Assembly (NCBI RefSeq): GCF_000024425.1
Contig: NC_013946.1
Span: forward strand, 186,001 to 250,000
Length of the DNA: 64,000 nt
Direction of reading: 5' to 3'
DNA from: Meiothermus ruber DSM 1279
GTDB lineage: Bacteria > Deinococcota > Deinococci > Deinococcales > Thermaceae
The translations under genes and the position numbers were made by a program. Below the pieces are notes generated by a model. That model was not told the origin of the DNA. It saw nothing but the letters and a program-made list of their open reading frames with translations, and did no database searches. Of this stretch, positions 3,011-15,683 are shown piece by piece. The stretch's first letter is position 1. Every line of letters starts with the position of its first letter.

Positions 3011-3112
3011 GAACGGCTCGAGGCCAGGGAGGGTGCTGACCTGCGAAAAAACGCACTTGGTTTATATAGCAGCGGTTGGGTTGCAAGGATGCTGTATAAA
3101 AGTGGACACTGT

Positions 3113-5533
3113 ATGTCAGACCCAGCGAACATCGCTTTGGCGGCCCTCCTGCACGACCTCGGCAAGCTCTACCAGCGGGCCTACTGGGGCCATGCGCCGG
3201 AAGGGGTTTCGGACTGGAGCCATCCGGCCTATACCGAATGGGCCATTCGGCAGCACCGGAGGCTCTTCGAGCAGGCGGGCCTCGAGCCCGACTGGCTGGC
3301 CCAGACCGCAGCCCGCCACCACGAGGGCTGGAGCAATAAGCCCCAGTACCAGCCCCAGACCCCCGAAGGGTGGTGCGTGGCCCTGGCCGATACCTACGCC
3401 TCGAGGGAGCGCCTCGAGGTAGACGAAAAGGGCAGCCGTGCGCCCGATACGCCGTTGAAATCGGTCTTTGCAAATTTGCGGGTTCAGGAAACCTACGGCC
3501 AGCGCGACCACGGCTACAGCATGGTGGAAGCCGGGCGGGAAGTGGGCTTGAAGCTGGGCGGGGCCTATCCCCAGGCCCGCCCCAACGTCTCCCGCGACAC
3601 CTACTGGCGCCTGGCCGAGCGGCTGGACGGGCGCCTGACCGAGCTGGCCAAGCACTCCCTGGGCCCGGAAGCCCTGCTCATGAACCTGCTGGGCATCTTC
3701 CAGGAGCTCCTGTGGAACGTACCCTCGGACACCCAGGGCGAGCCGGACGTATCGCTTTTCGACCACCTGCGCCTCACCGGGGCCATCGCCGCGGCGCTCT
3801 GGGCCTACCACGACGGCAAGGCCACGGTGGAAGCCCTCAGGGACGAGACTCCCGAGAAGTTCCTGCTCGTTTTGGGTGACCTGGGGGGCATCCAGGGCCA
3901 CATCTACCGCATTCAGGGAGCGCAGACCGGGGTGGGCGGCCTGGCCAAGCGGCTGCGGGCGCGCAGCCTCGAGGTCTCCCTGGCCGCCGAAGCCCTGGGC
4001 CTCGAGCTCCTGCAACGCACCGGCTTCACCCCTCTGCAGCGCATCATGAGCGCAGGGGGCAAGTTTTACCTGCTCCTGCCCAACACCGAGGCCGTGCACC
4101 GGGCGCTGGATGCGGTTCGTCAGGGCTGGGAAGCATGGGCTTTGCAGCAAGGGGCCACCTTACTGCCCTTTCTGGCGGCCCATCCCTTTGCACCGGGGGG
4201 CTTCCGGGCTTTTAGTGAGGTGCTGAAAGCAGCGCACCAGAAGCTAGTCGAGGCCAAACTAAAGCCGCTCTCGAGCCAGCTTTCCACGCCCTACCTGACC
4301 TCGGGCAGCACCAGCCTGCGCCCCTGCAGGGCCTGCGGGGTGCGGCCTGCTCAGTCCGCCACCGACGAGCTTTGCCATGGCTGTGAGCGCGATGGGCATA
4401 TGGGCCGGCTCATTCCCAAGCGTACGGAGATCGGCTTCTTCCCTCAGGATGCCCCCAGGCCCCACTACCGCTTTCCGGCCTGGCAGGTAGCGCTGGAGGC
4501 TTCCCCAGCCCACACCCTGCGCACCCGGCCCGACTTCACCCCGGCGGCCCACCCCTGGGAGGTGCGCCTCCTGGCTGGGCATATCCCTACCCTAGCGGAT
4601 GCCTTGCGCCAGGGCCGCTGGCGCGATCTGGCCGAGTACCAGGCCTGGGCCAAGGAGCAGGGGCTCTGGGAAGAGGAAGAAGAAGGGCGCAAGGCCGACG
4701 ACCCCCTTACCCTGGCCGAGCTGGCCGAGTTCTCCACCGGGGCCAAGTACCTGGGGGCCCTGATGCTCGACGCCGACCGCATGGGCGAGGCCTTCGCCAC
4801 CGGCTTCAAAGACGAAGAAGGGCAGGACAGCAGCAGCCCCAGCCGCATCGCCAGCTTATCGCGGATGCTCGAGCTCTTCTTCGCCGGGGAGGTGCTGGAG
4901 CTGATCAAAAACCCCCAAACCTACGCCAAGCGCCTGGGCTGGGACGAGCTGAAGGCCAGGGAAAAAGCAGCGCGCTACCCCCTCATCTACTCGGTGTATG
5001 CCGGGGGCGACGACCTCTTCTTGCTGGGGCCCTGGGACGTGCTTTTGGAGTTCGCCCTGGATCTGCAGGCGCTGTATCGGGAGTTCACCCAGCACCCCGC
5101 CCTCACCCTCTCCGGTGGCTTTGTGCTGGTGAGCCCCAGCCTGCCCATCCCGCTGCTGGCGGAGGCGGTGCAGGAAGCCGAGCAAGCAGCTAAAAATGCG
5201 GGCCGCAACCGGCTGCACCTGTTCGGGCAGGGCGTGCCCTGGGACGAGTTGCGTAACCTGCTCCCCTGGGTGCGGGACTTCCGCCGCCACCTCGAGGCCG
5301 AGGGCAAAGCGGGCCTGAGCAGCGCCCTGGCCTACCGCCTGCTCAGGCTGTGGAGAGGACACCAGGATGAGGACGAGGCCCGGCGGATGCGCTACAAGCC
5401 GCTCTTGGCCTATGCCCTGCGCGAGCGGAACGAGGAAATTCGCAAGCACTACCTGCAACTTACCGACCACACCCAGGCTGCGTGGCAATATCTGCCGGTC
5501 TGGGTGCAGTGGGGGTTGTATCTGGAGCGATAG
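3113..5533 (+). CDS. csm1: Csm1 / Cas10, type III-A signature protein
   Basis: Large subunit of the Csm complex. On target-RNA binding it makes cyclic oligoadenylates with its palm domain and can cut ssDNA with its HD domain. The 806-residue protein shows an N-terminal HD motif (LHDLGK, H14-D15), a first palm domain, a zinc-binding segment (CRACG...CHGC, about residues 405-428), and the active second palm with AGGDD (G631-D634). The GGDD motif is intact, so signalling to the two Csm6-like proteins should be possible. ATG 3113 begins just before the HD helix; an in-frame ATG at 3089 is an alternative. No clear Shine-Dalgarno fits either start. It is the first gene of a tightly packed operon. 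Confidence 0.95.
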   Translation: MSDPANIALAALLHDLGKLYQRAYWGHAPEGVSDWSHPAYTEWAIRQHRRLFEQAGLEPDWLAQTAARHHEGWSNKPQYQPQTPEGWCVALADTYASRERLEVDEKGSRAPDTPLKSVFANLRVQETYGQRDHGYSMVEAGREVGLKLGGAYPQARPNVSRDTYWRLAERLDGRLTELAKHSLGPEALLMNLLGIFQELLWNVPSDTQGEPDVSLFDHLRLTGAIAAALWAYHDGKATVEALRDETPEKFLLVLGDLGGIQGHIYRIQGAQTGVGGLAKRLRARSLEVSLAAEALGLELLQRTGFTPLQRIMSAGGKFYLLLPNTEAVHRALDAVRQGWEAWALQQGATLLPFLAAHPFAPGGFRAFSEVLKAAHQKLVEAKLKPLSSQLSTPYLTSGSTSLRPCRACGVRPAQSATDELCHGCERDGHMGRLIPKRTEIGFFPQDAPRPHYRFPAWQVALEASPAHTLRTRPDFTPAAHPWEVRLLAGHIPTLADALRQGRWRDLAEYQAWAKEQGLWEEEEEGRKADDPLTLAELAEFSTGAKYLGALMLDADRMGEAFATGFKDEEGQDSSSPSRIASLSRMLELFFAGEVLELIKNPQTYAKRLGWDELKAREKAARYPLIYSVYAGGDDLFLLGPWDVLLEFALDLQALYREFTQHPALTLSGGFVLVSPSLPIPLLAEAVQEAEQAAKNAGRNRLHLFGQGVPWDELRNLLPWVRDFRRHLEAEGKAGLSSALAYRLLRLWRGHQDEDEARRMRYKPLLAYALRERNEEIRKHYLQLTDHTQAAWQYLPVWVQWGLYLER

Positions 5534-5542
5534 GAGGCGCGT

Positions 5543-6025
5543 ATGGAGTTTTTTGAGAACCAAGAGAAGGGTATTTATAAGAAGGGTCTCTTTGATGAGG
5601 ATGCCAAACGCTGGGCACAAGATCTACGAAACGAAGGGCAGGGGCAGGATAAGCTCAAGTCGAGCCAGTTCCGCAACTACTTTCACGAGTTTCGCAGGCT
5701 CGAGGACGTCTTCGACCGTTACAAGCGCGAGACTGGGGGTGATGAGGCGCTGGCCTGGAACCGGCTCACCTCCCAAATCGAGTTACTGAGGGCAAAGCTG
5801 GCCTATGGGGGGCGCTCGAACGGTGGCCCTCTGCAAAAACTTCCTCTATTCCGGAGCAAGATGGACGAACTCCTATCAGATGCCAAGAGAAGCCCCAAGC
5901 ACTTCGCCGCGGTCATGCTGTTTTTGGAGGCAGTATTAGCCTATTTCTACGGTCTGGAAGGAGAGCGCGGAGGCGAAGCTGCACCCCGTAGTCCAGAGCG
6001 GCCTGCTCAGGGGAGGAGGTACTAA
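5543..6025 (+). CDS. csm2: Csm2, small subunit of the Csm complex
   Basis: 160-residue, mostly alpha-helical, highly charged protein in the csm2 position between csm1 and csm3. Csm2 forms the inner filament that lies along the crRNA-target duplex. Family features visible are the helical segment SSQFRNYFHEFRRLE and the ELLRAKLAYGGRS segment typical of Csm2 proteins. A low-complexity Arg/Pro tail ends the protein. Its stop abuts the csm3 start (TAAATG at 6023-6028). The call depends on both weak sequence features and gene order; order makes it secure. Confidence 0.9.
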   Translation: MEFFENQEKGIYKKGLFDEDAKRWAQDLRNEGQGQDKLKSSQFRNYFHEFRRLEDVFDRYKRETGGDEALAWNRLTSQIELLRAKLAYGGRSNGGPLQKLPLFRSKMDELLSDAKRSPKHFAAVMLFLEAVLAYFYGLEGERGGEAAPRSPERPAQGRRY

Positions 6026-6700
6026 ATGAAATTACTCGGCTACAAGCGCATCCACGGCATCATTCACCTTAGAAGCGGCCTACGCATCGGCATGAGCAAA
6101 GACCAGATGGCCATCGGGGACGTGGATAACCCGGTCATCCGCAATCCCCTGACCGATGAACCCTACATCCCCGGCTCCTCGCTCAAGGGCAAGATGCGGT
6201 ATCTGCTAGAGTGGCACCTCGGCGGGAAGTACATCACCGAGTCCGACCAGTACCATGTTTACAAGGACGAGGATGGCCCCATCGGGCGCATTTTCGGTGT
6301 AGCTCCCGGCAACGACCGTCGCAGTAAAGAACTAGCTCAACAGCGCGGTCCCACCCGCCTCCTGGTGCGCGATGCTTACCTAACGCGCGAATCTAAAGAA
6401 AGACTCGAGGCCATGACCGCCCGCGGCGGCTACCTGACCGAGGTCAAGCAAGAGGTGTTTATCCCCCGCATTGGCGGCAACGCCAACCCCCGCACCGCCG
6501 AGCGTGTACCGGCCGGGGCCAAGTTTGCCTTCGAGATGGTCTACCGGGTGATGGACACCGGCGACGGCGGCCAGACCGACCAGAGCAACTTCGAGTATGT
6601 AAAGAAGGCCCTCGAGCTGCTGCAACTCGACGGGCTGGGCGGCTACATCAGCCGGGGGTACGGGCAGGTGGAGCTGCGTTACGAAGTCGAGGAAAAATGA
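6026..6700 (+). CDS. csm3: Csm3, backbone RAMP and target-RNA nuclease
   Basis: RAMP-fold protein that polymerises along the crRNA and cuts bound target RNA every six nucleotides. In the 224 residues the active-site loop GDVDNPVIRNP is present, and D34 aligns by position and context with the catalytic Asp33 of Streptococcus thermophilus Csm3. IPGSSLKGKMR and the C-terminal glycine-rich GLGGYISRGYGQVEL are further RAMP hallmarks. A strong ribosome site, GGGAGGAGG, precedes the ATG inside the end of csm2. The last four bases overlap csm4 (ATGA), which suggests translational coupling. Confidence 0.96.
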   Translation: MKLLGYKRIHGIIHLRSGLRIGMSKDQMAIGDVDNPVIRNPLTDEPYIPGSSLKGKMRYLLEWHLGGKYITESDQYHVYKDEDGPIGRIFGVAPGNDRRSKELAQQRGPTRLLVRDAYLTRESKERLEAMTARGGYLTEVKQEVFIPRIGGNANPRTAERVPAGAKFAFEMVYRVMDTGDGGQTDQSNFEYVKKALELLQLDGLGGYISRGYGQVELRYEVEEK

Positions 6701-7584
6701 GGGTTCGGGCCTTTCATCTAAAGCTCTCCAGCATCACCGCCCCGCCCAGGGCTCCCACCCTGTGGGGCCACCTGGCCTGGTGGGTGCGCTATACCCAGGG
6801 AGAGGAAAAGCTGAAAGAGTGGCTCGAGGCTTTCCAGCACGACCCGCCCTTCCTGTTCTCCTCGGCCTTCCCCACCGGTTACCTGCCCCGCCCCTACCTC
6901 CCCCAGCTTCAGGTGGAGGACACCCAGGCGCGCAAAGCCCTCAAGAAGATCCGCTACCTGAGCCTAAAGACCTTCGCCAGGGTCATCCAGGAAGGCGAAC
7001 AAGCGCTACGCGATGCACCTGAACTCAAAGAGGGAAAAGCCCCCAAGGTCACCTTGGCCTCCCAGACCCGCGTGGGCATCAACCGCACCACCGGCACCGC
7101 GCAGGAGGGCATCCTCTTCACCGACCGGGTGTACTGGCTGAACGACAAAGCGCAACAGCAGACCTGGACGGTCTACGCCCAGGTTCGGCAGCAGGCCGAC
7201 TATTTGGAGCAAGCCCTGCGGGAGGTGGGCACCTTTGGTTACGGCGGTAAGGCCAGCGTGGGGCTGGGCCGCTTCGAGGTAGTAGACACCCAGGAACTCG
7301 AGCTGCCCGAGGCCGAGAACCCCACCCACTACGTCATCCTATCGCCCACTTTGCCCCAGGGCGAGGGGTTTTATGCCCTCGAGACCTACTGGGGCCGCCT
7401 GGGCGGGCACTTCGCCCTGGCCGAGACCCCCTTCAAGCGCCCCTACCTGCGGGCGGTGGAGGGAAGCGTGTTCAAGGAGAAGCCCAAAAGTGGCCTGCTG
7501 GACGTGACCCCAGCGCCGGCCCCGGAAGCGGGCGTGCGGGTGTGGGAGTATCTCTATCCCTTCTGCTTGGGGGTGCGGATATGA
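6697..7584 (+). CDS. csm4: Csm4, RAMP subunit binding the crRNA 5' tag
   Basis: 295-residue RAMP protein that caps the complex at the crRNA 5' tag and contacts Cas10. The N-terminus (FHLKLSSITAPPRAPTLWGHLAWW) and the glycine-rich YGGKASVGLGRFEV segment near residue 185 are typical of Csm4. It starts at ATG 6697 overlapping the csm3 stop by four bases, and ends with a TGA that overlaps the csm5 ATG at 7581 in the same way. This chain of ATGA overlaps is consistent with equimolar production of complex subunits. Confidence 0.93.
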   Translation: MRVRAFHLKLSSITAPPRAPTLWGHLAWWVRYTQGEEKLKEWLEAFQHDPPFLFSSAFPTGYLPRPYLPQLQVEDTQARKALKKIRYLSLKTFARVIQEGEQALRDAPELKEGKAPKVTLASQTRVGINRTTGTAQEGILFTDRVYWLNDKAQQQTWTVYAQVRQQADYLEQALREVGTFGYGGKASVGLGRFEVVDTQELELPEAENPTHYVILSPTLPQGEGFYALETYWGRLGGHFALAETPFKRPYLRAVEGSVFKEKPKSGLLDVTPAPAPEAGVRVWEYLYPFCLGVRI

Positions 7585-8711
7585 GTTTCATGGAGGCTTA
7601 CCGCCTCGAGCTCGAGCTCCTGGGCCCCGTTCACGTGGGCACCGGGGAGGCTTTCCCGGCCTACAGCTACTTGGTGGACGAGGCAAGGAAAGAGGTACTG
7701 ATCCTGGATTCTGGCCGCCTGCTGGAGTTGCTCTCCGAGAAGCAGAGGGACAACTACCTGCAAGCCGTGGCCCAAGGCCCCAAGCAGGCCCAGAACACCT
7801 TGCGATCGCTCTGGGGCAGCGGCCTGCTGGACCTCACCCCGGCTGTTCTGCGGCGGGTAGCGGCTAGCCCAGCCTTCATCAACACCGTCAAGAGTGCCAC
7901 CGACGCCGCGGGCCTCGAGTTCCGCACCCTGCCCAGGAGCCCGCTGGGGGCCTACCTGCCGGGCTCGAGCGTCAAGGGGGCTTTGCGCACGGCCTGGATG
8001 TTCCAGCGAATCCTAAAACGGGGTCAGGATATCGGGTATCACGATCGCTGGACATGGGGCAAGAAACCCCCGAAAGACGAATGGCCCCTCGTCCAGCCTC
8101 CCAAAAGCATCAACACCCGGGTTGCCCAGGAGTTTGAGGCCCTGGTGCTGGGCTACGCCACCGACCGTGGCCCTAACCTGCACCGTGACCCCTTCCGCCA
8201 GGTGCGTGTGGGAGACGGTGAGCCCTGCAAGAATCTGCTGCTCAACCGCATCGGGGTGTTTCATCCCGAGGGCAAGATGGATGGCACGGTGTTGCTGGCC
8301 GAGACCTTCCGCAGCAAGACCCGGCTCGCAGCGCTGGTGCGGCTTCACACTGGGCTGGCCCGACAGACCCACAACGACACCGTTTCTCACGCCATCTCGG
8401 CCCAGGCACTGATCAAAGCGTGCCAGGAGTACTACCAGGAAGTCGCGGCCAGGGAAAAGGAATTTGCCGAGAAACATGCCCTGGCACAGGGCCTGAAAAT
8501 CTATCAAGAGCTAGAATCTCGCCTAAACTCTGACCCACAGGCATTCCCCCTGCGCATCGGGTTCGGCTCAGGCCGAATGTCCATTCGACTGGCTCTGCTT
8601 CTAGATGGCGAGGAGGGGCAAGAACCCAAAACCCGCAAAACCGCCGGGCACTCTAACCCCAAGGACGGCTTCCCCATGGGTTGGGCTATTGCCAGGCTCG
8701 AGCCTTACTGA
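7581..8711 (+). CDS. csm5: Csm5, RAMP subunit at the crRNA 3' end
   Basis: 376-residue RAMP protein that caps the 3' end of the Csm filament. The start MEAYRLELELLGPVHVGTG, the YLPGSSVKGALRTA motif near residue 135, and the C-terminal LRIGFGSGRMS segment match Csm5. I took ATG 7581, which overlaps the csm4 stop, rather than an in-frame GTG at 7542 deep in csm4. The last bases of the gene contain a probable promoter for the vapBC pair that follows. No damage is seen. Confidence 0.94.
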   Translation: MSFMEAYRLELELLGPVHVGTGEAFPAYSYLVDEARKEVLILDSGRLLELLSEKQRDNYLQAVAQGPKQAQNTLRSLWGSGLLDLTPAVLRRVAASPAFINTVKSATDAAGLEFRTLPRSPLGAYLPGSSVKGALRTAWMFQRILKRGQDIGYHDRWTWGKKPPKDEWPLVQPPKSINTRVAQEFEALVLGYATDRGPNLHRDPFRQVRVGDGEPCKNLLLNRIGVFHPEGKMDGTVLLAETFRSKTRLAALVRLHTGLARQTHNDTVSHAISAQALIKACQEYYQEVAAREKEFAEKHALAQGLKIYQELESRLNSDPQAFPLRIGFGSGRMSIRLALLLDGEEGQEPKTRKTAGHSNPKDGFPMGWAIARLEPY

Positions 8712-9009: not shown

Positions 9010-9389
9010 TGGTGCTGGACAGTTCGGTTCTGGTACAGCTTATTTTTGCCGAGCCAGGGCATCGGGAGACGCTCGAGCACATTCTTGAGGCCGAGGTGCG
9101 CGTGGTGGGGGCACCCACGCTGGTCGAGGTGGGTATGGTGTTGACCAGTCGGTTGGGGCCGGACAACCTGTACCTGCTGGACGAACTTCTGATGCGCCTC
9201 GAGGCCCGGGTGGTTCCTTTCGAGGCAAGCCATGCGCACCAAGCCCTCTCGGCCTTCCGCCGCTGCGGCAAGGGCCGCCACCCTGCGGCCCTCAACTTTG
9301 GCGACTGCCTGAGCTACGCGGTGGCTAAGGTGGCGGGGATGCCCCTGGCCTACGTAGGCGACGACTTCGCCCAGACCGACCTGGCATGA
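9009..9389 (+). CDS. vapC: VapC-type PIN-domain toxin
   Basis: 126-residue PIN-domain ribonuclease. Acidic metal-binding residues are in place: D4 in MVLDSS, E40 in APTLVEVG, and D99 in NFGDCLSYAVA, followed by the YVGDDF end motif. VapC toxins cut tRNA or rRNA when not bound by VapB. Translation starts inside the vapB stop, and its own stop overlaps the cas6 ATG (ATGA at 9386-9389). The toxin gene is therefore coupled to both its antitoxin and a CRISPR processing gene. It looks full-length and active. Confidence 0.93.
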   Translation: MVLDSSVLVQLIFAEPGHRETLEHILEAEVRVVGAPTLVEVGMVLTSRLGPDNLYLLDELLMRLEARVVPFEASHAHQALSAFRRCGKGRHPAALNFGDCLSYAVAKVAGMPLAYVGDDFAQTDLA

Positions 9390-10174
9390 TACTCGCAGCG
9401 CTGATACTCCCCCTCGAGGGCCCCACCCGCCCCGACCCCGACGGTTGGCGTGGCCTGGTGTATGGCCTGCTTAAGGAGATAGATCCCGAGCTGCACGCGG
9501 CCCAGCACAACCCCTTCAGCCTGGGACTGGGCGGAGCCCTGGGGCAGTGGTGGGTGCGGATTGCTTTTTTGGAGGAGGGCCTGTATGCCCGGCTCTCACC
9601 CCACCTGTTTGGCCTGGCAGGCCAGACCGTGCGGCTCAAGGAGGCCTTCCAGGTGCGCGCGGTGCTGCAAGAAGCGCACCCCTGGGCCGGCGTGAGCACC
9701 TATCCCAAGCTCTTCCAGGGCCAAGCCACCGCCAGCCTGGGGCTTCAGTTTGCCAGCCCCACCTTTTTCCGCCGCAAGGGGCACAGCTACCCCCTGCCCG
9801 AGCCCCGGCTGGTCTTCGAGTCGCTCACCCAGCGCTGGAACGCCTTTGCTCCGGTAAAGGTGCCCCAGGAGGTGCAGGAAGCCTGGGAACGCCTTTTGGT
9901 GGGCCAGTTCCAGGGCCGCACCCACCACATCGCCCCCAACCAGGACGAGCGGGGGGTGGGCTTTGTGGGCCGGGTGGTCTACTACCTGCCCAAAGCCAGC
10001 CCCACCGAGGCCCAGTGGCTCCAGGCCCTGGGGCGCTTTGCCTTTTACGCCGGGGTGGGGGCCAAGACCAGCCTGGGGTTTGGGCGGGTGCGGATGTTTG
10101 ACCCATTGCAACAAGAAAGGAGGCCCGATGAATCAGAACAAGGAGCGCTTACGGGAACTGTGGGCGGAGTATAA
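9386..10174 (+). CDS. cas6: Cas6, pre-crRNA processing endoribonuclease
   Basis: RAMP-fold nuclease that cuts CRISPR repeats to release crRNAs. The 262-residue protein has the conserved C-terminal glycine-rich loop GVGAKTSLGFGRVRM and the family segment TFFRRKGHSYPLPEP. Candidate catalytic His residues are present, but I cannot assign the active site with certainty. It begins within the vapC stop. Its last 47 bases overlap the start of the csm6-like gene, so the tail RRPDESEQGALTGTVGGV may be dispensable. With no functional array in the window, it would serve arrays elsewhere. Confidence 0.92.
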   Translation: MILAALILPLEGPTRPDPDGWRGLVYGLLKEIDPELHAAQHNPFSLGLGGALGQWWVRIAFLEEGLYARLSPHLFGLAGQTVRLKEAFQVRAVLQEAHPWAGVSTYPKLFQGQATASLGLQFASPTFFRRKGHSYPLPEPRLVFESLTQRWNAFAPVKVPQEVQEAWERLLVGQFQGRTHHIAPNQDERGVGFVGRVVYYLPKASPTEAQWLQALGRFAFYAGVGAKTSLGFGRVRMFDPLQQERRPDESEQGALTGTVGGV

Positions 10175-11594
10175 AACCCTTATAAGGCAGGAGAGTGCAA
10201 ATCGAGCGGGGTCTTCCCCTCAGAGCCAAAAAGCTAAAGAGCTGTACGATACGCAAATCTGGCCCCTCACAAAAGAGGGTTTTACCGATCGAGGCCAGCA
10301 GCAGTATGTCGCGTCCTTTCACACAGTTGGCACAACAGCGGAACCGATCATTCTTTCGGTTCGGGCGCTGGATGCAGAGAAAGTGTATTTGTTGCATACC
10401 AAAGACACCGAAAAGCTCTGTGGGCGGATTGAGAGGGAATTGGGGTGGGGGGTGGAGCGCATCAAGACCCTCCTGGTTGGCCGCAGCGACCCAGAAGACA
10501 TTTATAAACAGGTGCGGCAAAAGGTAGACGAACTTCCCCCGGATGCGGCCATTGCCTTCGACCCAACTGGAGGCACCAAGGCGATGGTGGCTGGGTTGGC
10601 GATGTTTGCCTTCTCGCTGGCCGAGGAAGGGCGCACGGCGCATGTTTACTACGTTGACAACGAAGAATACGACGATGAGTTGCGCCGTCCTGTCGCAGGA
10701 ACAGAGTTTTTGAAGCGCCTCGAGAACCCCCGTGAGGTCATACCCGACTGGATATACCACCGCGCCAAAGATGCCTACAAACGAGGTGATTTTTCGCTTG
10801 CAAAACAGCTTTTTGACCAAGCTAAAGATCGTGAAGGGCGAGCGCATAGCCTCGAGGCGGTGTTATCGGAGGCTTACGAATCTTTGGATGCCGCCCAGTT
10901 CAAGCAGGCCAAAGACAGGCTTAATGATCTGCTCGAGCTACTACAAAAACCCGCACATAGGCAAAGTTTCCTTACTAGAAATATAGCTACCATCGAGCGT
11001 CAAAAAGAAGCCCTCGAGGTCGTTGTTCAGCTTACCGAGGCACTTTCTGCCAAAGACAAGAGCATAGCGCCTCTGGCAGACCCTCAACAAGTGGCTTGCG
11101 TGCTGGCAGCCCTCGGTTTTATGACCGAAAAGAGACTAAAGACGGGCCGTATAGCCGAAGCCGTGCTCTTGCGCTACCGCGCCCTCGAGCTGTTCTTGCA
11201 ACACCGCCTTGCGCTCAGGGGTTTTGACACAGAGAAGCCAGACTTTCCGGGATTGTGCGCTGCAAACCATACCTCTATCGAAGATCTCCAGGAGAAGTAC
11301 CAAGCTGAGCGCAAAGCTGCAAAGGCTGGATCAGACGATAAGCTGATAGAAAAAAACGCAGTAGACTTTATCACCGCCTTCTTTTTGCTCCGGGCCTTAG
11401 GGGATGGGCCGGCTTTAGCCGTCAATGTAAACAAGGTGCTCGGACTAACTAAAACCCGTAACGCCTCGGTTTTTGCCCACGGCTTTACGCTTCCCACAGA
11501 GGACAACGCCAAAAACCTGTCTGAAGTGTTGGTGGCTCTTGTTCAAAGTGGAGGCTTGCCAGAGGTCAGGTTCGAGCCCATTCCCCTGTCGTGA
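10128..11594 (+). CDS. csm6: Csm6-like CARF-HEPN ribonuclease (TIGR02710 family)
   Basis: Stand-alone effector expected to be activated by cyclic oligoadenylate from Cas10. The N-terminal CARF-like domain carries FDPTGGTKAM (D145-K151), the ligand-binding loop typical of the TIGR02710 group. A long helical middle leads to a C-terminal HEPN nuclease motif, R444-N-A-S-V-F-A-H451, which matches R-x6-H. Length is 488 residues. I chose ATG 10128 because AAAGGAGG at 10116-10123 fits it perfectly; longer frames reach back into cas6. The gene ends at a GTGA overlap with cas1. Both sensor and nuclease motifs are intact. Confidence 0.88.
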   Translation: MNQNKERLRELWAEYKTLIRQESANRAGSSPQSQKAKELYDTQIWPLTKEGFTDRGQQQYVASFHTVGTTAEPIILSVRALDAEKVYLLHTKDTEKLCGRIERELGWGVERIKTLLVGRSDPEDIYKQVRQKVDELPPDAAIAFDPTGGTKAMVAGLAMFAFSLAEEGRTAHVYYVDNEEYDDELRRPVAGTEFLKRLENPREVIPDWIYHRAKDAYKRGDFSLAKQLFDQAKDREGRAHSLEAVLSEAYESLDAAQFKQAKDRLNDLLELLQKPAHRQSFLTRNIATIERQKEALEVVVQLTEALSAKDKSIAPLADPQQVACVLAALGFMTEKRLKTGRIAEAVLLRYRALELFLQHRLALRGFDTEKPDFPGLCAANHTSIEDLQEKYQAERKAAKAGSDDKLIEKNAVDFITAFFLLRALGDGPALAVNVNKVLGLTKTRNASVFAHGFTLPTEDNAKNLSEVLVALVQSGGLPEVRFEPIPLS

Positions 11595-12562
11595 CCCTCC
11601 ACCTCACCGAGCAATCCTCCACCCTGCGCCTCTCCCAGGGCCGCCTGCGGGTGGAGCTCGACGAGCAAACCCTGGCCGAACTGCCCGCCCGCAAGGTGCG
11701 GGGGGTGGTGGTCTGGGGGAATGTGCGGCTGACCACCCCGGCCCTGGCCTTCCTGTTGCGGCAGGGGGTTCCGGTGCTGTACGCCACCTTGGAGGGCCAG
11801 CTTTACGGGCAGGCCCAGGCGCCCCAAAGCCTCGCACCCGAGGTGCTGCGGGCCCAGCTTCTGGCACAGCAAAACCCCCTTCCGCTGGCGCAGGGCTTTT
11901 TGCTGGGCAAGCTGCGTTCGGGGCAGATGCTGCTCGAGCGCCTCGCGCGCCAGGCCCCCATCACACCCCAGCAGGCCGAGATAGAGGCCGCCCTCGAGGC
12001 GCTGCCCCAGGCCCGGAGCCTCGAGGCCCTGCGCGGTATCGAGGGCAACGCCGCCCGCGCCTACTTTGCCGGGCTGCAAGCGGTACTAGCGCCCTACGGC
12101 TTTTCCGGGCGCAACCGCCGCCCCCCCACCGATGCCGTGAATGCCGCGCTCTCCTATGGCTACATGGTGTTGCTGGGCCGGGTGTTGCTGGCCCTGGGCA
12201 TAGCTGGCCTGCACCCCGAGCTGGGCCTGCTGCACACCGAGGGCCGCCGGGTCCCCGCCCTGGCCTTCGACCTGATGGAGGAGTTTAGGGTTTCGGTGGT
12301 GGACGCGGTGGTAATTGCGGCCTTTTTACGCAGCGAGCTAACCCCCCAGCAGCACAGCGAGGCCCGCAACGGCGGGGTTTATCTGAACGAAGCCGGGCGC
12401 AAGGCGCTGCTTAGGCGGCTCGAGGAGCGCTTTAGCCAGGAGGCCCAGCACCCCAAGGGCTTCCGCAAGCCCTACCAGGAACTCATCGAAACCCAGGCGG
12501 CCCGCCTCAAGGCGGCCATCCTGGGCCGCGAACCCTACACCCCCTTCTACCTTTGGAGGTAA
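11591..12562 (+). CDS. cas1: Cas1 spacer integrase
   Basis: Metal-dependent integrase that, with Cas2, inserts new spacers at the leader-repeat junction. The 323-residue protein has the three expected active-site residues: E151 (GIEGNAARAYF), H215 (LGLLHTEG) and D227 (PALAFDLMEEF). The DNA-binding C-terminal helical domain is complete. Translation starts at GTG 11591, overlapping the csm6 stop. The gene is intact, unlike cas2 downstream, so Cas1 probably cannot form a normal Cas1-Cas2 complex unless another Cas2 is supplied. Confidence 0.95.
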   Translation: MTLHLTEQSSTLRLSQGRLRVELDEQTLAELPARKVRGVVVWGNVRLTTPALAFLLRQGVPVLYATLEGQLYGQAQAPQSLAPEVLRAQLLAQQNPLPLAQGFLLGKLRSGQMLLERLARQAPITPQQAEIEAALEALPQARSLEALRGIEGNAARAYFAGLQAVLAPYGFSGRNRRPPTDAVNAALSYGYMVLLGRVLLALGIAGLHPELGLLHTEGRRVPALAFDLMEEFRVSVVDAVVIAAFLRSELTPQQHSEARNGGVYLNEAGRKALLRRLEERFSQEAQHPKGFRKPYQELIETQAARLKAAILGREPYTPFYLWR

Positions 12563-12676: not shown

Positions 12677-12952
12677 ATGCCCGACGAACGCTTCTACACC
12701 ATTGCCTACGACATCCCCGACGATGGCCGCCGGGTCAAGGTGGCCAACGTGCTCAAGAGCTTTGGCGAGCGGGTACAGCTTTCGGTGTTCGAGTGCTGGC
12801 TGGCCCCAGGGCAGCTCCAGCAGCTCAAGCAGCTTTTGTAAAAGAAGCTCGAGCTCTCCCAAGACAGCGTCCGCATCTACCCCATTGGCGGTACGGTGGA
12901 GGTGCTGGGTCTGGGCCGCCTCACCCAAAGCCCCGACTTCCTGATTCTCTAG
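12677..12952 (+). pseudogene. cas2: cas2, interrupted by an in-frame TAA
   Basis: Reading from ATG 12677 gives a Cas2 N-terminus (FYTIAYDIPDDGRRVKVANV, with the family Asp near the first strand), then LSVFECWL, up to codon 54. Codon 55 is TAA (12839-12841). The same frame continues for 36 more codons with typical Cas2 sequence (SQDSVRIYPIGG and a normal C-terminus) to a TAG at 12950-12952. The full frame would be about 91 residues, the usual Cas2 length. As written, the product lacks the second half of the ferredoxin-like fold and the Cas1-binding tail. A sequencing error or recoding cannot be excluded from sequence alone. Confidence 0.88.
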
Positions 12953-13096
12953 CCGTTACACCCCCCGTAACCTTGCCCCCACCCGCCAAAAATGCCTGCG
13001 CGATCGCACCCCACCTCACACAAAACCCAACCCGAAGCCAGTCCAGAACAGCATGGAAACACTTTCACTAAATAACCCATTATGTTTTGCGCAAAA

Positions 13097-13105
13097 TGCT
13101 ATAAT
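13097..13105 (+). promoter_or_regulatory. Extended -10 promoter in the CRISPR leader
   Basis: TGCTATAAT is a consensus extended -10 (TGn plus TATAAT). No good -35 is seen at 17 bases, which extended -10 promoters tolerate. It points toward the solitary repeat about 220 bases downstream. Confidence 0.55.
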
Positions 13106-13236: not shown

Positions 13237-13264
13237 AGTTATCCACAGGGGGCTGTGGATAACT
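13237..13264. repeat. Inverted pair of perfect DnaA boxes
   Basis: AGTTATCCACAG (13237-13248), GGGG, CTGTGGATAACT (13253-13264) form a perfect 12-bp inverted repeat. Each arm contains TTATCCACA, the consensus DnaA box (13239-13247 and, inverted, 13254-13262). No T-run follows on either strand, so it does not look like a terminator. It sits 63 bases before the CRISPR repeat. Confidence 0.85.
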
Positions 13265-13327
13265 CCGGTTTCTCATAAATACCCCCTCCAGCACCCCTGT
13301 ACAGCACGGTGTTTAACGGGGTATGCT

Positions 13328-13362
13328 GTTGCAAACAAAAAGCCCCGTAAGGGGATTGAAAC
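13328..13362 (+). CRISPR. Solitary CRISPR repeat (array of one)
   Basis: The 35-base element begins GTTGCAAACAAAAAGCCCCG and ends TAAGGGGATTGAAAC. It has the GTTGC start, a CCCC-GTAA-GGGG stem-loop and the ATTGAAAC 3' handle of repeats used with Cas6-processed type III systems. It lies directly after the leader and next to cas1-cas2. I searched the following kilobase by eye and found no second copy, so there is no spacer unit. This is best explained as a collapsed or never-expanded array. Confidence 0.85.
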
Positions 13363-14220: not shown

Positions 14221-15432
14221 GTGCAGGAGCAACTAAACACAGTTTTGATACTGGGGGTGGGGCAGACCCTGGAGCCCCTCGAGTTTGCCCTGACCGAGCA
14301 CACCCCGCAGGGGGTGATTTTTATAGCCAGCCAGGATTCGCAGGTGGTGTCGGCAGAGCTTATCCAACGCTATGGGGAAGCGCTGCGCTTTCACACCCTG
14401 CTGCTCGACGACCCCGAAGACCTGGGCGAGGTGTTTCGCAAGGGGCGCTTGGCACTGCAAAAGGCCCTCGAGTGGGAGGCGCGGGCCATTGTGGCCGATA
14501 TTACCGGGGGCACCAAAACCATGTCGGCGGGGCTGGTGCTGGCCCTTACCGGGCAGGGCGTTACCTTTAGCTACGTGGGCGGCCAGGCCCGCGACGGTCA
14601 GGGGCGGGTAAAAAGCGGCAGCGAGCGGCTGCGGCTGCTGGAAGACCCCACCTACCGCTACGGCCTGCGCGAGTGGGAGGGTTTCCGGCGGGCCTGGAAC
14701 CAGTGCGACTACCAGGCCGCACAGGCGTTTCTGGACGCACTGCTGGCCCGGCCCCTGACCCCCTCCGAGAAGCGCTTTTACGAGCACCTGAAGGGGATTA
14801 CCGAAGGCATGCTGGAGTGGGACTTGTTTTACCACAAGGCGGCCTGGCAGAAGCTGGAGAGACACCTCGAGCCCACCCTTACCATTGCCGAAGCCTGGGG
14901 GCACGGGGGCAAGGTGCGGGTGTTGCAGGAATTGCAGCAGGCCCAAGCCCGGCTGCGGGCCATCCTGGATCGGGAGGGCAAGCCCACCTTTGCCCTGCTG
15001 GCCGACCTTTTAGCCAACGCCCAGCGCCGGGCTTCCAGGGGCCGCCACGACGACGCGTTGGCCCGGCTGTACCGGGCGGTGGAGCTGGCCGCTGAGGCCG
15101 ACCTGTACGAGCGGCACCAGATTGTGCTGAGCGACCCCAAAAGCTATCCGCAGGCAGCCCAGCACCTTGCTCAACAGATTCAGAGGGCCACCGGCCTCAA
15201 GGATCGGCTGTCCCTGGCGGCTACCATAGATGGGGTATTGGGGCAGTCCCAGACCCTACCCCAGCGGCTCTACGCGGCCTACCTGGGCGAGCTAGGGAAC
15301 CTGCTCCAAGCGCGTCACAACAGCATTCTGGCTCATGGGTTTACCCCGGTGAAGCAGGAATCGTGGGAGAAACTTTATAAGTCCCTTCAGGGCTTGGGCC
15401 TCGAGGCCGCCCCCGCCTGGCCCACCTGGTAG
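14221..15432 (+). CDS. Second Csm6-like CARF-HEPN protein (TIGR02710 family)
   Basis: 403-residue relative of the csm6 gene at 10128. It keeps a CARF-like nucleotide fold with ADITGGTKTM (D93-K99, plus flanking residues) and a C-terminal HEPN motif R365-H-N-S-I-L-A-H372 followed by GF. The middle region is helical and shorter than in the first paralogue. It should also be a cyclic-oligoadenylate-triggered RNase. It stands apart from the csm operon with its own likely promoter. GTG 14221 is the only start that includes the complete first strand (TVLILGVGQ). Two such effectors in one locus may differ in ligand ring size; this is inference. Confidence 0.85.
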   Translation: MQEQLNTVLILGVGQTLEPLEFALTEHTPQGVIFIASQDSQVVSAELIQRYGEALRFHTLLLDDPEDLGEVFRKGRLALQKALEWEARAIVADITGGTKTMSAGLVLALTGQGVTFSYVGGQARDGQGRVKSGSERLRLLEDPTYRYGLREWEGFRRAWNQCDYQAAQAFLDALLARPLTPSEKRFYEHLKGITEGMLEWDLFYHKAAWQKLERHLEPTLTIAEAWGHGGKVRVLQELQQAQARLRAILDREGKPTFALLADLLANAQRRASRGRHDDALARLYRAVELAAEADLYERHQIVLSDPKSYPQAAQHLAQQIQRATGLKDRLSLAATIDGVLGQSQTLPQRLYAAYLGELGNLLQARHNSILAHGFTPVKQESWEKLYKSLQGLGLEAAPAWPTW

Positions 15433-15502
15433 ACGCTTGTCGGGTGGGTCTTGGGGGTGTAGCCTGAAGCCAAGGCCCGCTAGGGCCAGACAACCCGGTC
15501 AA

Positions 15503-15620
15503 GTTTTGGTGCCTGGGCGCGTAGCCCTGGCTTAAAGTGGGGAAGTCCGGTGAAAGTCCGGCACTGTCGCGCAGCGGTAACGGTGCATTGATCGCCCGAA
15601 GTCCGAATACCTGCCAAAAC
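15503..15620 (+). promoter_or_regulatory. Cobalamin riboswitch
   Basis: Conserved elements occur in order: closing stem GTTTTGG (15503-15509) with CCAAAAC (15614-15620), then GGTGCC, the GTGAAAGTCCGGCACTG segment, the GCAGCGGTAACGG loop, and the B12 box GTCCGAATACCTGCC. It precedes a B12 transport and salvage operon. A hairpin GCCTTC/GAAGGC (15621-15645) and a terminator follow, so bound cobalamin most likely stops transcription. Confidence 0.93.
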
Positions 15621-15683
15621 GCCTTCTTACTCCGATACGGAAGGCACCTCTCGCAAGAAGGGGGAGTTTCGGGGAACCTGTTT

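Follow-up and report, generated by a model that had tools for sequence, protein, structure and literature searches.

The question raised by this locus is why a CRISPR leader of Meiothermus ruber DSM 1279 carries two perfect, inverted DnaA boxes, and whether such boxes would serve spacer integration, array transcription or something else. The 28 nt palindrome at 13237-13264 of the window (the whole 64,000 nt stretch of DNA analysed here) lies exactly where a preliminary description of this DNA had placed it, and reads AGTTATCCACAG-GGGG-CTGTGGATAACT (in full letters AGTTATCCACAGGGGGCTGTGGATAACT). It is composed of two perfect TTATCCACA boxes on opposite strands, inverted and separated by a gap of 6 bp, and these are the only exact TTATCCACA sites in the window. 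The right box and its flanks form the 13-mer CTGTGGATAACTC. The spacing of 63 nt between the palindrome and the CRISPR repeat given in that description was confirmed, as was the absence of dnaA and dnaN from the window; oriC is located approximately 198 kb away. No intrinsic terminator or consensus sigma-70 promoter was found at the box pair.

The type III-A locus and its leader

The presence of csm1–5, cas6, a CARF gene, cas1 and cas2 upstream of the leader identifies this as a type III-A locus. The features of the locus and leader are as follows.

3089-8711, forward strand: csm1-csm2-csm3-csm4-csm5, type III-A effector genes (NCBIfam matches over cut-off)
9386-10174, forward strand: cas6 (NCBIfam match)
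9963-11594, forward strand: CARF protein of the TIGR02710 family (NCBIfam match)
11591-12562, forward strand: cas1 (NCBIfam match)
12677-12952, forward strand: cas2 with an in-frame TAA at 12839-12841, a probable recent pseudogene
13080-13105, forward strand: promoter-like block TTATGTTTTGCGCAAAATGCTATAAT, with TTTTGCGCAAAATGCTATAAT at 13085-13105, among the most conserved blocks of the leader alignment
13239-13247, forward strand: left DnaA box TTATCCACA, identical in 38/38 leaders
13254-13262, reverse strand: right DnaA box TTATCCACA, perfect in 36/38 leaders
13269-13280, forward strand: conserved leader block TTTCTCATAAAT, directly 3′ of the boxes (Thermus form TTTCTCACAAAC)
13279-13325, unstranded: leader-proximal inverted repeat ATACCCC ... 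GGGGTAT around a conserved GTACAG.ACG
13328-13362, forward strand: single CRISPR repeat GTTGCAAACAAAAAGCCCCGTAAGGGGATTGAAAC of 35 nt, the same repeat as in the 7-repeat array at genome position 11834
14221-15432, forward strand: second CARF protein (TIGR02710), found downstream of the array in most relatives

The placement of the boxes inside a CRISPR leader in the preliminary description holds, and the leader is of type III-A: it is located directly before the first repeat, contains a promoter-like block and is common to several arrays of the same repeat. The ‘array’ in the window, however, is one repeat with zero spacers. The leader also exists in another copy, with 98 % identity and the same box pair, at genome position 11625-11868, where it precedes a real array of 7 repeats. 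The Cas2 protein of a near relative is intact and otherwise identical to the product of the window cas2. Adaptation at the window locus thus seems to have been lost recently, although a sequencing error in cas2 is possible; given the single repeat and the stop-interrupted cas2, the window's own leader copy may be inactive. Two small genes after the single repeat resemble an antitoxin and a PIN-type toxin and are candidates for these functions.

The centre of the box pair is located approximately 77 bp upstream of the leader–repeat junction, 3′ of the promoter-like block and adjoining the leader-proximal block. The start of the pre-crRNA is predicted approximately 215 nt upstream of the repeat, and no −35 consensus was found at the promoter-like block. 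A perfect 12 bp palindrome, TTTTGCGCAAAA, overlaps the extended −10 at 13085-13105 and is nearly invariant across leaders; it is a possible operator for an array regulator.

Conservation of the box pair

Thirty-eight leaders of the same type spanning the site, from 17 genomes of three genera, were aligned. The left box does not vary among them, and the two leaders with an imperfect right box differ by one substitution each. Among the 37 leaders in which the gap was measured it is 7 bp in 32 and 6 bp in 5. The distance from the boxes to the repeat varies by only 1 nt over 37 leaders, as would be the case for an IHF-like site; the whole leader is nearly constant in length, however, so that this spacing is not peculiar to the boxes. 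A leader tree was built from the non-box columns; its length is 4.5 substitutions per site. On this tree, parsimony requires 2 changes in all for the 18 box columns, compared with a mean of 2.64 for each of the other columns. So low a total was not reached by any of 200,000 sets of 18 columns drawn at random. The box pair is therefore under selection above that of its surroundings. As leaders of one genome are mutually related, the independent evidence resides in the depth of the tree rather than in the count of 38.

Fifty genomes of the family were searched in two independent ways, with leader DNA and with the box-pair pattern, and the same places were found. Every pair with a 6–7 bp gap in genera g1–g3 is inside a leader of this type, and the records carrying a leader pair include Meiothermus rufus and Meiothermus sp. 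SKYB64. The number of pairs per genome ranges from 1 to 6 and tracks the number of arrays. Leaders with one mutated box still precede arrays (17 repeats in G006), and in the one recognisable decayed leader, with an eroded promoter, a degenerate repeat and no array, the boxes have been lost. A chance origin of the pair was rejected, both by the column draws and by a reversed control pattern, which gave 0 matches in the 50 genomes. Spread by phage or plasmid was likewise considered and rejected; there was no phage match, and the one partial plasmid match stops short of the boxes.

What has been conserved is sequence rather than structure. Across the 38 leaders, none of 23 predicted base pairs, those within the boxes included, shows a compensatory change. 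Both substitutions within the boxes disrupt pairing, the base pair that immediately flanks the boxes is lost in 8 of 38 leaders, mismatches at the stem edge are tolerated and the composition of the loop varies freely. The leader RNA folds better than its shuffles (z −4.6), yet the fold is without covariation support. From the absence of compensatory changes, the conserved object appears to be two 9-mers in a fixed geometry and not a hairpin.

DnaA boxes elsewhere in the genome

Genome-wide statements rest on pattern searches of the window's genome, a single contig of 3,097,457 bp. Exact TTATCCACA sites number 32, compared with 7 for the reversed control, and comparable figures were obtained for each of the 18 genomes of the genus. 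The dnaA–dnaN intergenic region is oriC and contains 8 perfect TTATCCACA boxes; the leader boxes match the consensus of this, the organism's own origin, exactly. When gaps of up to 25 bp are allowed, inverted pairs are confined to three places in the entire genome: each of the two CRISPR leaders, and the promoter of dnaA. An inverted pair upstream of dnaA is also present in four further species. Likewise, the 13-mer CTGTGGATAACTC has exactly four genomic copies: at oriC, at the dnaA promoter and in the two leaders. Of the other single boxes, thirteen were inspected, and all are inside open frames of some length. A scatter of similar palindromes across the genome, named beforehand as an outcome that would speak against a leader element, was not seen.

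Thermus leaders, other CRISPR types and other taxa

A search of other leaders of the same type for the palindrome had been proposed. It is present in Meiothermus and in two sister genera (38/38 leaders, 36 of them with a perfect pair) and absent from the leaders of Thermus. The latter are those of genus g4, the Thermus label being taken from kinship and repeat, among other signs. With a related repeat, Thermus leaders keep the promoter-like −10, a TTTCTCA.AAA block and the proximal inverted repeat. Where the box pair would sit there is a conserved TGCATATTCC, and the best box match in these leaders has 2–3 mismatches. Replacement of the pair by TGCATATTCC with the flanking blocks kept is as expected of an exchangeable host-factor site, and the occurrence of different motifs at this position in the two genera is suggestive of a docking site that is modular. 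The TGCATATTCC leaders are L056, L058, L060-L062, L065, L066 and L068, with an inverted AATATGC further upstream; in these Thermus-like leaders TGCATATTCC/AATATGC is probably the site of another leader-binding protein. Thermus type III arrays do acquire spacers (PMC7515739), and given that the Thermus leaders examined are without the pair, DnaA is not generally required.

Two further CRISPR types are present in the genome; their arrays occupy 1502548-1503505 and 3049070-3053624, and each has a cas1 of its own nearby. No TTATCCACA box was found in the 18 kb surrounding the former array, and no box adjoins the latter, the nearest being approximately 3.7 kb away. In the rest of the phylum (61 genomes) the pair occurs in two genomes only, and the one of these loci that was examined is without an array. 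Among the matches listed from outside the Thermaceae, no CRISPR array adjoins the pair in the genome loci examined. The pair as a general CRISPR leader motif was considered and rejected: the pattern is widespread in other genomes and viral contigs with no adjoining array in the genome loci examined, and it is absent both from Thermus leaders and from the genome's two other CRISPR types.

Possible functions of the box pair

Spacer uptake is dependent on replication and on host factors. To our knowledge, most of the host factors are unknown outside of the organisms that use IHF. A selected DnaA site in every full leader of one CRISPR family would supply a named candidate. The sequence comparisons give good support to a leader element linked to DnaA, and it is very probable that DnaA binds the pair. 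With roughly even confidence, the palindrome can be regarded as a functional, selected DnaA-binding leader element, most likely serving as the site of a host architectural factor for Cas1–Cas2. That the pair acts in integration, and not in transcription, is held with slightly less than even confidence; this role is ranked first because the zone between promoter and repeat serves integration in the systems that have been studied.

In such a mechanism DnaA would occupy both inverted boxes, forming a small nucleoprotein complex approximately 77 bp before the leader–repeat junction. This complex would act as a lineage-specific architectural factor, helping Cas1–Cas2 to locate and bend the junction in an IHF-like manner, and spacer uptake could become tied to replication or to the ATP-DnaA state of the cell. 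The preliminary description had envisaged that leader activity or spacer integration might be linked to replication initiation, and the conserved pair would be consistent with such a link. A stronger proposal is tentative: in the Meiothermus lineage DnaA would be dedicated to spacer integration as its host factor, docking on the pair in every leader of these arrays and so coupling the gain of immune memory to the replication state. In Sulfolobus solfataricus, specific integration depends on host factors and ATP hydrolysis as well as on a long leader (PMC5815122).

Alternatively, DnaA on the pair could control transcription of the array by blocking or releasing RNA polymerase, coupling pre-crRNA output to the DnaA cycle. 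Since the conserved promoter-like block is 5′ of the boxes, the leader transcript must cross them, with DnaA positioned approximately 130–150 nt downstream of the leader promoter, and such a roadblock is ranked second for this reason. It is also in keeping with the other inverted pair being at the dnaA promoter, where it is a likely autoregulatory operator. In E. coli, DnaA can block elongation and regulates promoters, a further point in its favour. Regulation of uvrB by DnaA is reported (PMC6015884). However, the site is away from the promoter, the cas operon is without a pair, and a block upstream of each array would carry a high cost were steady transcription needed. Transcriptional control is considered rather unlikely, but it is the strongest of the alternatives.

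That another DNA-binding protein, for example a Cas or nucleoid protein, reads the palindrome and that the likeness to DnaA boxes is convergent is improbable. The unrelated motif at the same spot in Thermus would fit such a protein. Against this, 13 nt of the leader exactly match boxes at oriC and at the dnaA promoter of the same organism and have no further copies in the genome, and the tolerance of a 6–7 bp gap of free sequence fits two separate 9-mer contacts.

Smaller still is the probability of a DnaA titration or replication-timing site, in which leaders would be datA-like sinks and the link to CRISPR incidental. Titration had been offered in the preliminary description, and it draws on the genome-wide over-representation of boxes throughout the genus and on the location of arrays near oriC in several species (12–98 kb). 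Each site, however, contributes only two boxes among about 30, and titration would not require a fixed orientation, gap and place in the leader; the strong constraint on the boxes and the variation in copies per genome with array number weigh against it further. Least probable is a DNA cruciform or RNA hairpin recognised by Cas1 or other proteins, a form of which (a hairpin for integrase recognition) had also been suggested: perfect 12 bp arms in the window, the folding of the leader RNA and the leader stem-loop bound by Cas1 in Sulfolobus islandicus (PMC9456107) are in its favour, but the pairing has been neither compensated within the boxes nor maintained at the stem edge.

Comparison with known systems

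The preferred reading, a DnaA site used in integration, has several partial parallels. IHF is the host factor that bends the leader of type I-E arrays in E. coli and type I-F arrays in Pectobacterium, and in E. coli its site is within about 35 bp of the repeat. The leader described here is similar in having a site for a host nucleoid- or replication-associated protein at a fixed place; it differs in that the putative site consists of inverted DnaA boxes, centred approximately 77 bp from the repeat of a type III-A array, and is predicted from sequence. DnaA, moreover, is the protein that initiates replication. The pair at the Meiothermus dnaA promoter has the same 9-mers, the same inverted arrangement and the same 13-mer CTGTGGATAACTC, but has a gap of 14–15 bp and is promoter-proximal, whereas the leader pair has a gap of 6–7 bp and is within the transcribed leader. 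A DnaA box is also present in the end of IS50/Tn5, likewise inside a region recognised during a DNA integration reaction; there the box is single and the enzyme an unrelated transposase, while CRISPR integration employs Cas1–Cas2. The leader of Sulfolobus islandicus is similarly of two parts, an upstream accessory-factor motif and a proximal inverted repeat, yet the system is archaeal and of type I-A, and the leader-distal motif involves the CARF regulator Csa3a instead of DnaA boxes (PMC9456107).

The author of the preliminary description knew of no report of DnaA boxes in a CRISPR leader, and none was found in the open-licence literature, where co-occurrences of the terms were in genome papers and similar articles. 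Host-factor sites are a known kind of leader element; the novelty lies in the factor, the geometry and the lineage. The conserved pair points to a connection, hitherto unreported, between replication of the chromosome and bacterial immunity. If true, this would be the first direct physical link known to us between a replication initiator and CRISPR memory.

Array positions and other features

At least one array of this type is located approximately 12–98 kb from a dnaA-associated pair in G000, G005, G015, G016, G017, G018 and G021, seven genomes in which both are on one contig. This proximity may be plain synteny. Three perfect DnaA boxes in direct order, at steps of 21 and 12 bp, are found at G000:C1:3045320-3045361 (L073), and box clusters with similar spacing are present in G005, G006, G007 and G008; the three-box direct cluster is a candidate DnaA titration or reactivation locus. 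Downstream of the leader, a cobalamin riboswitch is located at 15490-15632 of the window, upstream of a periplasmic binding protein gene.
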